The notes beneath the pieces are model-generated. The model worked only from the letters and a program-made list of their open reading frames with translations, did not search any database and was not told the origin of the DNA. Positions 25,891 to 53,837 of a stretch of 64,000 nucleotides of DNA are shown piece after piece. The position numbers and the translations under genes are program-made. This DNA comes from an uncultured bacterium. GTDB taxonomy: Bacteria; Fidelibacterota; Marinisomatia; Marinisomatales; Marinisomataceae. Location of the stretch: assembly GCA_943788675.1 (NCBI GenBank), contig CALSRE010000001.1, positions 659,573-723,572 of the forward strand, written 5' to 3'. How positions within the stretch are numbered: position 1 is the stretch's first letter; the number at the start of each line of letters is the position of its first letter.

Positions 25891-25976
25891 GCCCGGGTGG
25901 TGAAATTGGTAGACACAAGGGACTTAAAATCCCTCGGAGATTAAACTCCGTGCCGGTTCGAGTCCGGCCCCGGGCA
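25891..25976 (+). tRNA. tRNA-Leu(TAA)
   Basis: GCCCGGG/CCCGGGC acceptor, long variable arm, anticodon TAA. Confidence 0.94.
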
Positions 25977-25984
25977 CTAATCTT

Positions 25985-26737
25985 ATGAATCATTTTATTT
26001 TCTTTCATGGAGTTGGCATACGTTCTCATTTCTGGGATACTATAATTCCAAAACTTGAAAAAAAATCACTGGAATATTCTCTTATTGATTTAGACTTTAC
26101 TTCCTTAGATAATGCTCTCGAATCATCTATTAGTTCTGTTAAAGAAATAATGAATAAATATCCTGAAAGAAACATTATTTTAGTAGGGCATAGCCTTGGT
26201 GGATTGTTTGCAATTTTTGTTGCCCAACAGCTGGGAGATGCAATACATAAGCTTATTATTGTAAACACAGGTCTTGCTCCAAAAAGAGTGGCTTTGAAGG
26301 CTATGCAGCAAATGCAAATAAATCGCTTATCAAAGTTTTTTAAGAAAATGGGTATGAGAATGCTTTTTAGTGGTCAGCTGCCTAAATGGTTAACAAGATC
26401 CCTTTTTTTTACAAGCGATACTTCTGAGGAAGTTCAATTGGAGCTCTCAAAGCATAAAGTAAGAGAGAGTCGCTCGTTTTTAATGGAACACTTTAATTCT
26501 AAAAAAATGTGGAATGCACATTTAAATCGTATTCATTTTAGCGGACCTGATAACGTACTTTCAATATTTGGTAGCAAAGATAAAACCACTCCAAAAAGAG
26601 CTTTTATGTACCTGGTAAAAAAGCTAAATGCATCACATAACATTTACCATGGTAGTGGCCATAATGATATAATAACAGCTGAAAAATATAATGATAAATT
26701 TGTAGAAGATATTATATTATTTGCTGATAATATTTAA
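25985..26737 (+). CDS. Alpha/beta hydrolase
   Basis: FFHGVGIRSHFWD; nucleophile elbow LVGHSLGG; terminal GSGHND His. Confidence 0.85.
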   Translation: MNHFIFFHGVGIRSHFWDTIIPKLEKKSLEYSLIDLDFTSLDNALESSISSVKEIMNKYPERNIILVGHSLGGLFAIFVAQQLGDAIHKLIIVNTGLAPKRVALKAMQQMQINRLSKFFKKMGMRMLFSGQLPKWLTRSLFFTSDTSEEVQLELSKHKVRESRSFLMEHFNSKKMWNAHLNRIHFSGPDNVLSIFGSKDKTTPKRAFMYLVKKLNASHNIYHGSGHNDIITAEKYNDKFVEDIILFADNI

Positions 26738-33633: not shown

Positions 33634-33719
33634 GGAGGCATGGCAGAGCGGTTGAATGCACTGGTCTTGAAAACCAGCAAGGGTGTAAGCCCTTCAGGGT
33701 TCGAATCCTCTTGCCTCCG
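33634..33719 (+). tRNA. tRNA-Ser(TGA)
   Basis: GGAGGCA/TGCCTCC acceptor, long variable arm, loop CTTGAAA. Confidence 0.94.
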
Positions 33720-33721
33720 CA

Positions 33722-35134
33722 ATGAATACTCCTCGTGTTAGATTCGCACCAAGTCCAACCGGTTATTTGCATATTGGTGGAGCAAGAACTGCTCTTTTTA
33801 ATTGGCTATTTGCTAGGCAACATAAGGGACAGTTTATGTTAAGGATTGAGGACACTGATCTAGAACGATCCAAAGAAGAATATGTTGATCAAATTACCGA
33901 TGCTTTATCTTGGCTAGGACTTAACTGGGATGAAGATATTGTACTTCAATCAAACAACAAGTCAAGACATGAAGAAATGGTAGCAAAAATGCTTGATAAT
34001 GGAACAGCTTATCGTTGTTTTTTTCAAAAAGAAGAACTTGATGATTTGCGATTAGCATCTGAACAAAAGAAAGAAGTGTTTCGTGTACCGGAAACGTATA
34101 GAGATTTATCAGATGATGAAGTTCAGGAATTGCTCAATCAAGGCAAATCATTTACGGTCAGATTAAAAGTTCCAGAAGGTGAAACAGAATTTACTGATTT
34201 AGTATATGGTACAATCAAGGTTCAAAATAAAGATTTAGATGACTTTATCATTGCTAGATCAGATGGATCTCCCACCTATAATTTTGTGGTAGCTATCGAT
34301 GATTCAGATATGAATATTTCTCATGTTGTTAGAGGAGATGATCATTTAGCAAATACTCCAAAACAAATCCTTGTATATAGAGCCTTGGGACTAAATGAAC
34401 CTATTTTTGCTCATTTGCCAATGATTTTAGGTTCAGATAAAAAAAGATTAAGCAAAAGGCATGCCGCAACCAATGTACAAGAGTACAAGAATAAAGGATT
34501 TACTGCCACAGCAATATTAAATTATTTGTCGTTACTAGGATGGAATCCTGATTCCGATAAAGAAATTTTTAATCAAGAAGGGTTGATAGAAAGTTTTCAA
34601 TTTGATCAAGTACAAAAAAAATCAGCCGTCTTTGATGAAAAGAAACTATTGTGGATCTCCCAACAACATTTAACTAAGATGAGCGTTAGAGATGCGATGA
34701 ATGAAATATATAAGCTGAATCCTGATTGGGGAGATGGTCTTGATTGGAATTATTTAAAAGAGATAGTAAAGCTGATTAAAGATAGGTCAAAAACAATTAC
34801 AGAAATTGCTGATATGTCAGGACTATTTTTTCAAGAGTTGCTTAAATATGATAAAGATTTAATATCTAAAATCTTTAGCGATGAAGCAATTGCTATTCTA
34901 ACAGACTTTAAAAGCGCTTTAGAAGGTTGCGATACATGGAATAGATCTGAAATTGAACTTATTTTTGACAATTTAATGGCACAGCATGTTGTGCAGATTG
35001 GAAAAGTAATGAAGCCTATAAGGGTTGCGCTTACAGGTATTACTTTTGGTCCTGGTATTTTTGATTTAATACTTTTATTAGGAAAAGATATTTGTTTAAA
35101 ACGTGTTCGTAATCTTTTGTCGATATTGGACTAA
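33722..35134 (+). CDS. gltX: Glutamyl-tRNA synthetase
   Basis: VRFAPSPTGYLHIGGARTALFNWLFAR; KRLSKRHAATNVQEYK. Confidence 0.97.
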   Translation: MNTPRVRFAPSPTGYLHIGGARTALFNWLFARQHKGQFMLRIEDTDLERSKEEYVDQITDALSWLGLNWDEDIVLQSNNKSRHEEMVAKMLDNGTAYRCFFQKEELDDLRLASEQKKEVFRVPETYRDLSDDEVQELLNQGKSFTVRLKVPEGETEFTDLVYGTIKVQNKDLDDFIIARSDGSPTYNFVVAIDDSDMNISHVVRGDDHLANTPKQILVYRALGLNEPIFAHLPMILGSDKKRLSKRHAATNVQEYKNKGFTATAILNYLSLLGWNPDSDKEIFNQEGLIESFQFDQVQKKSAVFDEKKLLWISQQHLTKMSVRDAMNEIYKLNPDWGDGLDWNYLKEIVKLIKDRSKTITEIADMSGLFFQELLKYDKDLISKIFSDEAIAILTDFKSALEGCDTWNRSEIELIFDNLMAQHVVQIGKVMKPIRVALTGITFGPGIFDLILLLGKDICLKRVRNLLSILD

Positions 35135-35193
35135 AAATTTATCAGGTTGAAGCTCTGGCTTTTGATTAATAACTTACTAACTATTTTACATAT

Positions 35194-35267
35194 GCGCCCG
35201 TAGCTCAATTGGATAGAGCGTCTGGCTACGGACCAGAAGGTTGTGGGTTCAAGTCCTTCCGGGCGTA
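35194..35267 (+). tRNA. tRNA-Arg(ACG)
   Basis: GCGCCCG/CGGGCGT acceptor, loop CTACGGA. Confidence 0.95.
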
Positions 35268-35270
35268 CAA

Positions 35271-35768
35271 ATGTCTAGTCAACATCTAAATCAGCCCAAT
35301 CATGAAGATTGGATGAGAAAAGCTTTAAGTTTAGCGACAAAAGCAATGCTTGAAGATGAAGTGCCAATCGGCGCTGTAGTTGTTTATAAAGGCAAAATAG
35401 TTGGGCAAGGATATAATCAGTGTAATTCATTGAACGATTCAACTGCACACGCAGAAATGCTTGCTATCACTGCAGCATCAAATACTATTGGAGATTGGAG
35501 GCTTAATGACTGTACAATGTATGTTACCAAAGAGCCTTGCTCGATGTGCGCCGGTGCAATCGTTAATAGTAGAATAGAATTCTTATATTTTGGATGTTAT
35601 GATGAAGATTTTGGTGCATGCGGATCCAAATTTGAAATTTGCGGAAATGTGAGTTTAAATACACCGGCAGTAGTGAGAGGAAATCTTTTATCTGGTGAAT
35701 CTTTAGCGCTAATAAGAGAATATTTCTTTAGAAAAAGAAAGAAAAAGAAAGAGTCATTTACAGAATAA
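35271..35768 (+). CDS. tadA: tRNA-specific adenosine deaminase TadA
   Basis: EVPIGAVVVYKGKIVGQGYNQ; HAEMLAI; TKEPCSMCAGAIVNSRI; start refined to ATG 35271. Confidence 0.95.
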   Translation: MSSQHLNQPNHEDWMRKALSLATKAMLEDEVPIGAVVVYKGKIVGQGYNQCNSLNDSTAHAEMLAITAASNTIGDWRLNDCTMYVTKEPCSMCAGAIVNSRIEFLYFGCYDEDFGACGSKFEICGNVSLNTPAVVRGNLLSGESLALIREYFFRKRKKKKESFTE

Positions 35769-51061: not shown

Positions 51062-52933
51062 GTGTCATTTAAAACTGTACCAGGAATGTTTCAATCTCTC
51101 ATCAAAGAGAGACCAAATCTTAAAACTTTTTTTACCAAAGAAGATAATAAATGGCAAGGAGTTGAGCTGTTAGAATTGCAAAAGTTGGTTGAAGACTTTG
51201 CAAACGGATTAAAAAATTTAGGTATTAATGAACACGATAAAGTAGCAATAATTGGTGCAAATTCTCGCAAGTGGGCTATTTCTGACTATGCAATTGCACA
51301 CATTAGAGCTGTTTCGGTACCAGTTTATCCAACATTGATACCTGCTCAATCTCAATATGTTGTAGAGCATTCGGAAAGTAAGATTGCAATCGTGCAAGAT
51401 GCTATACAATTAGACAAAGTTTATTCATTGATTAATGACGCAAATTCTAATCTAAGCACTATTATTGTGATGGATGACGAATATAACGGCAATAAGGATC
51501 ATGTAGTTAAGTTTTCAGAAGTATTTAACATGAATAGTGAAGTGCATGATATAAGAGAGATTTCAAAATCTGTAAAACCAGAAGACTTGTTGACATTGAT
51601 TTATACAAGCGGTACTACAGGAAACCCTAAAGGAGTTATGCTTAGTCATGCGAATATTTGTAACAACCTTCTTTCAATTGATGGAATTATTAAAGCAGCA
51701 ATGGAGCTCAATCCTGAATTGAAACCTGCAGATGGTATTGAAAGGTTTGTCTCATTTCTACCAATTAGTCATAGTTTTGAAAGAGTCGGTGGTCATTATT
51801 CAATTTTCAGTCAAGGGACTTCTATATATTATGCAGAGATGAACTTTACTCCTGAAATATTATTTGAAAATATTAGAGAGGTTCGCCCAACTTTTTTAAC
51901 TGCAGTGCCAAGAATTTTTGAAAAAATTCATGCAAAAATCATGGACACTGTTTCAGATATGTCCGGTGTTAAGAAATCACTTGCTGAATGGTCTATTGCA
52001 GTTGGAATGCAAACTGTACCCTATCGTCAAGCAAGCCAAAAACTTCCATTTATGTTGGGTTTGAAATATAATATTGCTGACAAATTAGTATTAAATAAGT
52101 TTAGAGCAGCCTTAGGTGGTAAAGTAAGAGCATGTTCTTCTGGTGGTTCAGCATTATCAAAGGAGGTTGGCTCTTTTTTCTGTGGAATCGGTATCTCAAT
52201 TATTGAAGGATACGGTTTAACCGAAACTAGTCCGGTAATGACAATAGGACATCCTGATTTCTTCAAGTTTGGCACTGTTGGAAAAGCAATTCCAGGTGTT
52301 GAAGTAAAAATAGCATCAGATGGAGAAATTATTTGCAGAGGACATAATGTTATGCAAGGATATTACAAGAATGAAGAAGCAACTAATGAAGCAATTGTTG
52401 ATGGGTGGTTTCATTCTGGAGATATCGGTGAATTTGATGAAGATGGTTTATTGAGAATAACTGATAGAAAAAAGAGTTTAATAGTAACTTCGGGTGGAAA
52501 AAATGTTGCTCCTCAACCAATGGAAGTTTCATTAACATCTAATAAGTATATTGAGCAATGCAATGTTGTTGGAGACGATAGAAATTTTATCTCAGCATTG
52601 ATCGTACCTAATAAGGAAAATCTCATGGCATGGGCTGAAAAAGAAGGGTTGTCAAGCTTAGACTACAAATCGCTATGTGCTCATGAACAAACTTATGATA
52701 TGTTTGACGCAATTGTTAAATATACTATGAAAAATTTCTCTCGCTATGAATCTATAAGAAAGTTTGCACTCATTGCAGATGAATGGACAGTTGATAAAGG
52801 TGAATTAACGCCAAAAATGTCTATCAAAAGAAAAGTTGTGATTGAAAAACATAAAGATGAGATAGAGGCAATTTACAATTCTCCAAACATACCAGTCAAA
52901 ACGCCAGATGATGAACTTCAACTTGGTGGGTAA
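51062..52933 (+). CDS. Long-chain fatty-acid-CoA ligase (AMP-binding)
   Basis: LIYTSGTTGNPKGVMLSH; GYGLTETSPVMT; WFHSGDIGEFDEDGLLRITDRKKSLIVTSGGKNVAPQ. Confidence 0.95.
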   Translation: MSFKTVPGMFQSLIKERPNLKTFFTKEDNKWQGVELLELQKLVEDFANGLKNLGINEHDKVAIIGANSRKWAISDYAIAHIRAVSVPVYPTLIPAQSQYVVEHSESKIAIVQDAIQLDKVYSLINDANSNLSTIIVMDDEYNGNKDHVVKFSEVFNMNSEVHDIREISKSVKPEDLLTLIYTSGTTGNPKGVMLSHANICNNLLSIDGIIKAAMELNPELKPADGIERFVSFLPISHSFERVGGHYSIFSQGTSIYYAEMNFTPEILFENIREVRPTFLTAVPRIFEKIHAKIMDTVSDMSGVKKSLAEWSIAVGMQTVPYRQASQKLPFMLGLKYNIADKLVLNKFRAALGGKVRACSSGGSALSKEVGSFFCGIGISIIEGYGLTETSPVMTIGHPDFFKFGTVGKAIPGVEVKIASDGEIICRGHNVMQGYYKNEEATNEAIVDGWFHSGDIGEFDEDGLLRITDRKKSLIVTSGGKNVAPQPMEVSLTSNKYIEQCNVVGDDRNFISALIVPNKENLMAWAEKEGLSSLDYKSLCAHEQTYDMFDAIVKYTMKNFSRYESIRKFALIADEWTVDKGELTPKMSIKRKVVIEKHKDEIEAIYNSPNIPVKTPDDELQLGG

Positions 52934-53837
52934 ATTAGTATCAATATTAATTTCTTCAATTGTACTTTTTAGTTTTGTAGATAAAGATGCTTCACCTTAT
53001 GTGATTGTTTTAGGAGTTGCACAAGATGGCGGAGCGCCGCACGCAGCATGTATCAAAGAGTGCTGCTCACTTAAATGGAATAATCCAAATTTACATAATC
53101 GTGTTTCTAGTATTGGTATCGTAGATCCAAAAACAAAAGAAGTTTGGATGATAGACGCTACTCCAGATTTTACAAATCAATTACATTCGCTTTCAAATAA
53201 TCAGCAATATTCTCTCAAAGGGATTTTCCTAACTCATGCACACATAGGTCACTATACAGGGCTAATTCATCTTGGAAGAGAAGTTATGGGTGCTAAAAAA
53301 GTAGTAGTTAATGCAATGCCAAAAATGAAGAGTTTTCTTGAAAATAATGGACCATGGAGCCAGCTAGTCAACTTAGAAAACATTGCTATTAATATGCTTA
53401 ATAATAACGAAGTGCAAAAGTTAAATGAAAATATATCAATCACTCCTTTTTTAGTTCCTCATAGAGACGAGTTTTCAGAAACAGTTGGATATAAAATAGA
53501 AGGACCTTCAAAATCTTTGGTTTTTATACCTGATATTGACAAGTGGGATAAATGGAAAAAAGATATTGTAGCTATTGTAGAAAAAAATGATTTTAGTTTA
53601 CTAGATGGAACTTTTTATGATATAAATGAACTGCCTGGTAGAGATATGGAAAAAATACCTCACCCTTTCATAGTGGAAACAATGCATCTTTTTAACAATT
53701 CAAATGATAAAAAATCGATTTTTTTTATTCATTTAAATCATACTAACCCTGCCTTAAATAATGACTCATTTGAGCATAATCATATTAAAAATAACGGATT
53801 TAATGTCGCCTTTAGAAATCAAATTTTTAATCTTTAA
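52908..53837 (+). CDS. PqqB-like MBL-fold metallohydrolase with N-terminal signal/anchor
   Basis: VLGVAQDGGAPHAAC; IDATPDFTNQL; LTHAHIGHYTGL; HRDEFSETVGYKI; LLDGTFYD; FIHLNHTNPALN. Confidence 0.82.
   Translation: MMNFNLVGKLVSILISSIVLFSFVDKDASPYVIVLGVAQDGGAPHAACIKECCSLKWNNPNLHNRVSSIGIVDPKTKEVWMIDATPDFTNQLHSLSNNQQYSLKGIFLTHAHIGHYTGLIHLGREVMGAKKVVVNAMPKMKSFLENNGPWSQLVNLENIAINMLNNNEVQKLNENISITPFLVPHRDEFSETVGYKIEGPSKSLVFIPDIDKWDKWKKDIVAIVEKNDFSLLDGTFYDINELPGRDMEKIPHPFIVETMHLFNNSNDKKSIFFIHLNHTNPALNNDSFEHNHIKNNGFNVAFRNQIFNL

Follow-up and report, generated by a model that had tools for sequence, protein, structure and literature searches.

What does it mean that the gene for a tRNA-editing enzyme begins 3 nt behind the gene for its own substrate? 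TadA edits A34 of tRNA-Arg(ACG), and the two genes stand side by side in a 64,000-nt stretch (hereafter, the window) of a 1.02-Mb, two-contig genome of Marinimicrobia (SAR406, Fidelibacterota), a group formerly designated Candidatus Marinimicrobia (SAR406) and now Fidelibacterota (PMC11652737). The first-pass annotation had read the arrangement as an enzyme and its substrate sharing one transcript, with tadA translation possibly depending on tRNA 3' cleavage. We therefore consider whether the junction is real, how far it is conserved, what kind of transcript it implies, and whether coupling between the substrate and the enzyme is needed to explain it.

The tRNA-Arg(ACG)-tadA junction and its conservation

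The tRNA-Arg gene with anticodon ACG occupies 35194..35267 of the window on the + strand, with discriminator A at 35267, and was recovered both by Rfam (RF00005, 35194-35267, 62.8 bits) and by ARAGORN, whose boundaries (35194-35268) count one encoded C past the discriminator. Its 74 nt are identical in most members of the genus. A 3-nt spacer, CAA (35268..35270, + strand), the first base of which is the encoded C74, separates the tRNA from the tadA ATG at 35271, so that the junction reads ...CGGGCGT-A(35267)-CAA-ATG(35271); ARAGORN, Rfam, and the sequence itself thus bear out the reported 3-nt distance. The ORF at 35271..35768 (+ strand, 165 aa) is predicted to encode TadA, the tRNA adenosine(34) deaminase. 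Its top NCBIfam match was NF008113 (TadA) at 147.4 bits, 2.6 bits short of the cut-off of 150, the second-ranking family scored only 42.7 bits, and phmmer matched it to E. coli TadA (1z3a) with an E value of 3.9e-35. The zinc-site motifs HAE and PCxxC are present as TAHAE and PCSMC, aligned to 1z3a, and the expected substrate, tRNA-Arg(ACG), was found in the window by ARAGORN. The idea that tadA shuns CGN codons to escape its own product was rejected: the gene in the window has 0 of 7, where the average over 50 window genes is 24%, and relatives have up to 5.

A survey of related genomes, which the first-pass annotation had suggested, found the adjacency throughout the genus, whose members live in the ocean and have small genomes. 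Examining 23 other genomes of the genus, we detected tadA in 18, with TadA identities of 55-93%; the five genomes that yielded none are draft assemblies, 72-95% complete. The tRNA-Arg(ACG) gene lay directly upstream of tadA on the same strand in all 18, as well as in the named contigs L032-L047, and the junction is kept across about twenty species, which disposes of the concern that the adjacency might be unique to one assembly. Among 20 distinct genus junctions, the spacer measured 3 nt in 17, 5 nt in two, and 7 nt in one. The 3-nt variants in relatives are CAA, CTA, CTT, CAC, and CTC, the 5-nt spacer is CTAAA and is followed by a GTG start, and the 7-nt spacer is CATCTCA; the tadA start codon in the genus is either ATG or GTG. 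Because all 20 junctions end tRNA-Arg(ACG) 3-7 nt before the tadA start, the adjacency is real and beyond chance. In one incomplete assembly (L132 on G001:C1, 64%), tadA seems to carry a frameshift near residue 123, and its junction with the tRNA is unbroken.

The junction remained constant while its upstream neighbor changed. In the window, gltX (glutamate--tRNA ligase; 33722..35134, + strand; TIGR00464, 538.5 bits) precedes tRNA-Arg, and the distance between the two ranges from 29 to 99 nt in genus loci where gltX adjoins; about seven loci carry three further genes in between. The gltX-tRNA-Arg spacer of the window (35135-35193) keeps the last nine codons and the stop of a lipoprotein gene, a 3' relic at 35140..35169 (+ strand) that reads YQVEALAFD*. 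In four relatives (L033, L045, L047, and L129), the corresponding bases form the end of a lipoprotein ORF of ~290 aa just upstream of the tRNA, and three other loci (L035, L040, and L042) show the same spacing. In relatives the lipoprotein gene is intact and, together with two others, occupies the interval from gltX to tRNA-Arg. Read against these relatives, the spacer marks a deletion of three genes. A conserved block that precedes the tRNA (CAGGTTGAAG...TTTTGATTAA) was considered as a promoter and rejected, being the remnant YQVEALAFD* of the lipoprotein gene; its conservation is therefore by itself no promoter evidence, although the promoter for the tRNA and tadA could lie partly within the relic.

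Start codon, transcript, and tRNA 3' ends

The position of the start codon behind the tRNA was upheld by the frame of tadA relative to the tRNA, for which offsets 0, 1, and 2 all occur among species of the genus; translation therefore starts past the tRNA, and a conserved start inside it is excluded. Two other start codons, a TTG in the T-arm of the tRNA and the internal ATG of HEDWM, are in frame in the window genome, but a start at either is scarcely credible. The shifting frame means that species do not share a start within the tRNA, and the HExWM motif, kept throughout the genus, aligns to an internal part of E. coli TadA. Since the window also offers no in-frame start codon between the first tadA ATG and HExWM, initiation at internal Met15, the downstream ATG (in DWMRKA) that the first-pass annotation had named as a possible start of its own, is unlikely, and both candidates were rejected.

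No Shine-Dalgarno site fits between tRNA-Arg and tadA, nor at the other junctions where just 2-7 nt lie between the acceptor stem and the start codon. More broadly, the 16S rRNA keeps CCTCC, yet a Shine-Dalgarno-like motif was seen before only 18 of 64 window genes. When the joint transcript was folded in silico, the cloverleaf stayed intact and the first two dozen nt past the tRNA were unpaired, so by this computation the tRNA would fold independently of the tadA mRNA. Many bacteria initiate transcription at the start codon and thereby produce leaderless mRNAs (PMC4681348), which gives some footing to the notion that tadA has a leaderless promoter of its own inside the tRNA gene. We consider this very improbable: the -10 element would fall in the invariant, GC-rich T-arm and acceptor, and the spacer length varies between 3 and 7 nt. 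Moreover, a scan for sigma-70-type sites found none in the T-arm or acceptor, and fewer in the 1-kb region than in shuffled sequences. With a 3-nt gap in which neither a separate promoter nor a ribosome-binding site fits, a transcript shared by the tRNA and tadA is the natural reading of the sequence.

Such a transcript would probably be divided. As a ribosome would hardly initiate 3 nt past an acceptor stem, the simplest reading is cleavage at the tRNA 3' end, and the geometry makes it plausible that tadA translation depends on this step. RNase Z is the textbook enzyme for the 3' cut on tRNAs that lack an encoded CCA. Our search for canonical RNase Z (TIGR02651) found none in the window genome or in seven other genus genomes, all at least 92% complete. 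The best match in the window genome, a weak one at 52908-53837, was rejected as PqqB-like, and a Lactamase_B_2 scan gave no better candidate. A near-canonical RNase Z was seen in a distant member of the phylum (G075). RNase E/G is present (459 bits) and could cut just behind the tRNA.

The tRNA genes themselves carry a further regularity. C74 is encoded in all 263 distinct Marinimicrobia tRNA genes examined (166 from the genus and 97 others; relatives L142-L276), as at 35268, 33720, and 25878 in the window, and the full CCA in only 11 of the 263, which amounts to a partial CCA template. Universal C74 is not a chance outcome, because the genome is 33% GC, and it suggests that the tRNA 3' end may be set at or after C74, with CA added later. 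A survey of CCA templating (PMC5143459) makes no mention of C74 or Marinimicrobia. Together, the apparent lack of canonical RNase Z and the universal C74 raise the question of how this phylum makes its tRNA 3' ends. One answer would be that RNase E/G cuts inside tadA and that exonuclease trimming proceeds back to C74, so that each transcript yields either tRNA or TadA. The presence of RNase E/G where canonical RNase Z was not found agrees with this scheme, and a C74 encoded in every tRNA gene examined would fit trimming by an exonuclease that halts at C. However, gltX, prs, and tadA, with their spacers of 2-7 nt, would then all need uncut readthrough RNA for their translation, and initiation at a start codon touching an acceptor stem is sterically unlikely; accordingly, we rate mutually exclusive products as improbable.

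Other tRNA-ORF abutments and linkage across the phylum

The layout at tadA did not hold up as a special property of this gene, since six further tRNAs of the same genome abut unrelated ORFs. Searching tRNA neighborhoods for ORFs of at least 80 aa that start 2-10 nt behind the discriminator, we found that 7 of the 34 tRNA genes abut an ORF: Ser(UGA)-gltX at 2 nt, Arg(ACG)-tadA at 3 nt, Gln-prs at 7 nt, Leu(UAA)-hydrolase-like at 8 nt, Lys(CUU)-SDR at 9 nt, and both Asp-saccharopine-dehydrogenase-like and Phe-ORF at 10 nt (names other than gltX and tadA were given by inspection of the N-terminus). Only one of the seven pairs is cognate. Two of the other cases also lie on the + strand of the window. 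The gltX ATG is 2 nt past the discriminator of tRNA-Ser(UGA) (33634..33719; ARAGORN, Rfam), a gap that recurred in 5/5 surveyed genomes and in every readable named-contig locus. The third abutting case, tRNA-Leu(UAA) (25891..25976; ARAGORN, Rfam), stands 8 nt before an ORF of 250 aa (25985..26737) that resembles an alpha/beta hydrolase by inspection only; this gap is also 8 nt in G019 and G009 and 22-24 nt in G021 and G023. Elsewhere in the genus, the gaps are 6-12 nt for Gln-prs and 9-10 nt for Lys(CUU)-SDR, a Leu(UAG)-ORF gap of 3 nt occurs in three genomes, and Asp, Phe, and Leu(UAA) show gaps of 6-10 nt in part of the genus. Abutting tRNAs numbered 34 of 153 in five genus genomes versus 2 of 34 in a 2.1-Mb relative (G031), a modest difference (Fisher P 0.03) that is descriptive, the genus genomes being related to one another. 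Short intergenic regions have been reported as a mark of streamlining in epipelagic Marinimicrobia (PMC6143742). In G019, an ORF of 301 aa begins 3 nt past tRNA-Met(CAU); at the corresponding tRNA-Met of the window genome (L006), that start is kept with no long ORF after it, and the gene looks broken.

Outside the genus, the phylum survey covered 199 genomes, with counts made by hand from two coordinate tables and 20 neighborhoods checked. The tRNA-Arg(ACG) gene lay ~80-110 nt upstream of tadA on the same strand in six non-genus genomes from two families, f18 (G142 and G147) and f19 (G061, G067, G076, and G080), and 2-17 kb upstream on the same strand in about 24 more, while a few showed the opposite orientation (G064, G066, G069, and G129). 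Of the named contigs from Marinimicrobia outside the genus, one (L054) carries the pair. Outside the genus, tRNA-Gln(CTG) and tRNA-Glu(CTC) sit near tRNA-Arg. Across Marinimicrobia (L202-L221), tadA is usually followed by tRNA-Ser(CGA) within about 30-500 nt; this tRNA was not found among the 34 of the window genome. In G061, a terminator-like hairpin with a T run (fold z -3.3) separates tRNA-Arg from tadA, a structure not listed by the pattern scan, which allows only short loops; co-transcription is therefore not general. Beyond the phylum, tRNA-Arg(ACG) was upstream of tadA in 0 of 55 loci with flanks of up to 4 kb (L053 and L055-L111 minus L059, L062, and L093). Because the two genes stand 80-110 nt or 2-17 kb apart elsewhere in the phylum, the junction appears to be an old linkage compacted in this genus, and spacings of 80 nt to 17 kb in other Marinimicrobia families mean that coupling is not generally required.

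Streamlining, coupling, and known tRNA-mRNA units

We favor, with moderate confidence, an explanation by streamlining, in which tRNA-Arg(ACG) and tadA form a dicistronic unit, the tRNA serves as a 5' processing signal, and the cognate pairing is a by-product of old linkage. The unit would have become fixed in a streamlined Marinimicrobia genus as the old chromosomal linkage was compacted until 3-7 nt were left between the two genes. The primary transcript would run through the tRNA into tadA, and endonucleolytic cleavage at or just past the tRNA 3' end would release tadA mRNA whose leader measures only 0-7 nt. This near-leaderless mRNA would then be translated without Shine-Dalgarno pairing. 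The same layout at gltX, prs, and other unrelated genes would make it a general solution of compact genomes, and the coincidence of enzyme and substrate at tadA would bring at most a mild benefit of co-expression.

Alternatively, the position of tadA after its substrate tRNA may be maintained by selection because it ties editing capacity to tRNA-Arg(ACG) output. Editing in E. coli falls when tRNA-Arg2 is in excess, so TadA can be limiting (PMC13170351), which lends this proposal some appeal, as do the survival of the tRNA-tadA junction through upstream rearrangements in the genus and the linkage of the pair across the phylum, down to 80-110 nt in two other families. Nevertheless, shared descent would also lead one to expect a conserved 3-nt junction inside a single genus, one cognate pair among seven abutments does not single out tadA, and the genes lie kilobases apart in most of the phylum, with the hairpin of G061 between them in one of the close pairs and no tRNA-Arg(ACG) within the upstream flanks, up to 4 kb, of the loci beyond the phylum. 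We thus regard selected coupling as unlikely, though worth weighing. Genome compaction explains the layout at least as well as deliberate coupling, and substrate-enzyme coupling is possible without being needed to explain what the sequence contains. Quite unlikely in our estimation is the most far-reaching combination, in which tRNAs act as mRNA 5' processing signals without canonical RNase Z and TadA synthesis depends on the maturation of its own substrate, thereby controlling the tRNA-Arg(ACG)/TadA ratio. Overall, the arrangement is real, conserved, and mechanistically interesting, and most likely a product of streamlining with a possible regulatory bonus.

A close parallel is the tRNA punctuation of animal mitochondria, where no more than a few nt separate mRNA start codons from a tRNA, the excision of tRNAs makes the mRNA 5' end, and mRNAs are leaderless or nearly so. 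Here, too, conserved start codons follow tRNA 3' ends by about 10 nt or less, as expected of tRNA-punctuated mRNAs; in contrast to mitochondria, this is a free-living bacterial lineage, only a fraction of the tRNAs is involved, and tRNA cleavage as the source of the mRNA 5' end is a prediction. In bacteria, the thrU-tyrU-glyT-thrT-tufB operon of E. coli likewise joins tRNAs and a protein gene in one transcript, as would the unit proposed here, but the leader of its tufB is an ordinary one that includes a Shine-Dalgarno site. The genus keeps a tufB-like unit as well, tRNA-Thr-tuf, with a gap of 40-51 nt. The dicistronic tRNA-sRNA transcripts of Nanoarchaeum equitans (PMC3491384) resemble our case in that tRNA 3' processing creates the downstream 5' end in a reduced genome; however, the downstream RNA is a C/D sRNA rather than an mRNA, and RNase Z is present. 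In Streptomyces and Mycobacterium, leaderless mRNAs are likewise translated with leaders of <10 nt and no Shine-Dalgarno site (PMC4681348, PMC4633059), yet their 5' ends arise from transcription initiation and not from tRNA processing. Within the part of the literature covered, we found no described tRNA-Arg(ACG)-tadA unit and no bacterial tRNA-punctuated leaderless mRNAs.

If the tRNA is the cutting signal, genome streamlining would have given this genus a bacterial equivalent of the tRNA punctuation of mitochondria, and core genes such as gltX, prs, and tadA would be translated from almost no leader. The tadA case also provides a naturally occurring setting in which to test whether sharing a transcript benefits an editing enzyme and its substrate, a question kept current by the demonstration that TadA is limiting in E. 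coli (PMC13170351).
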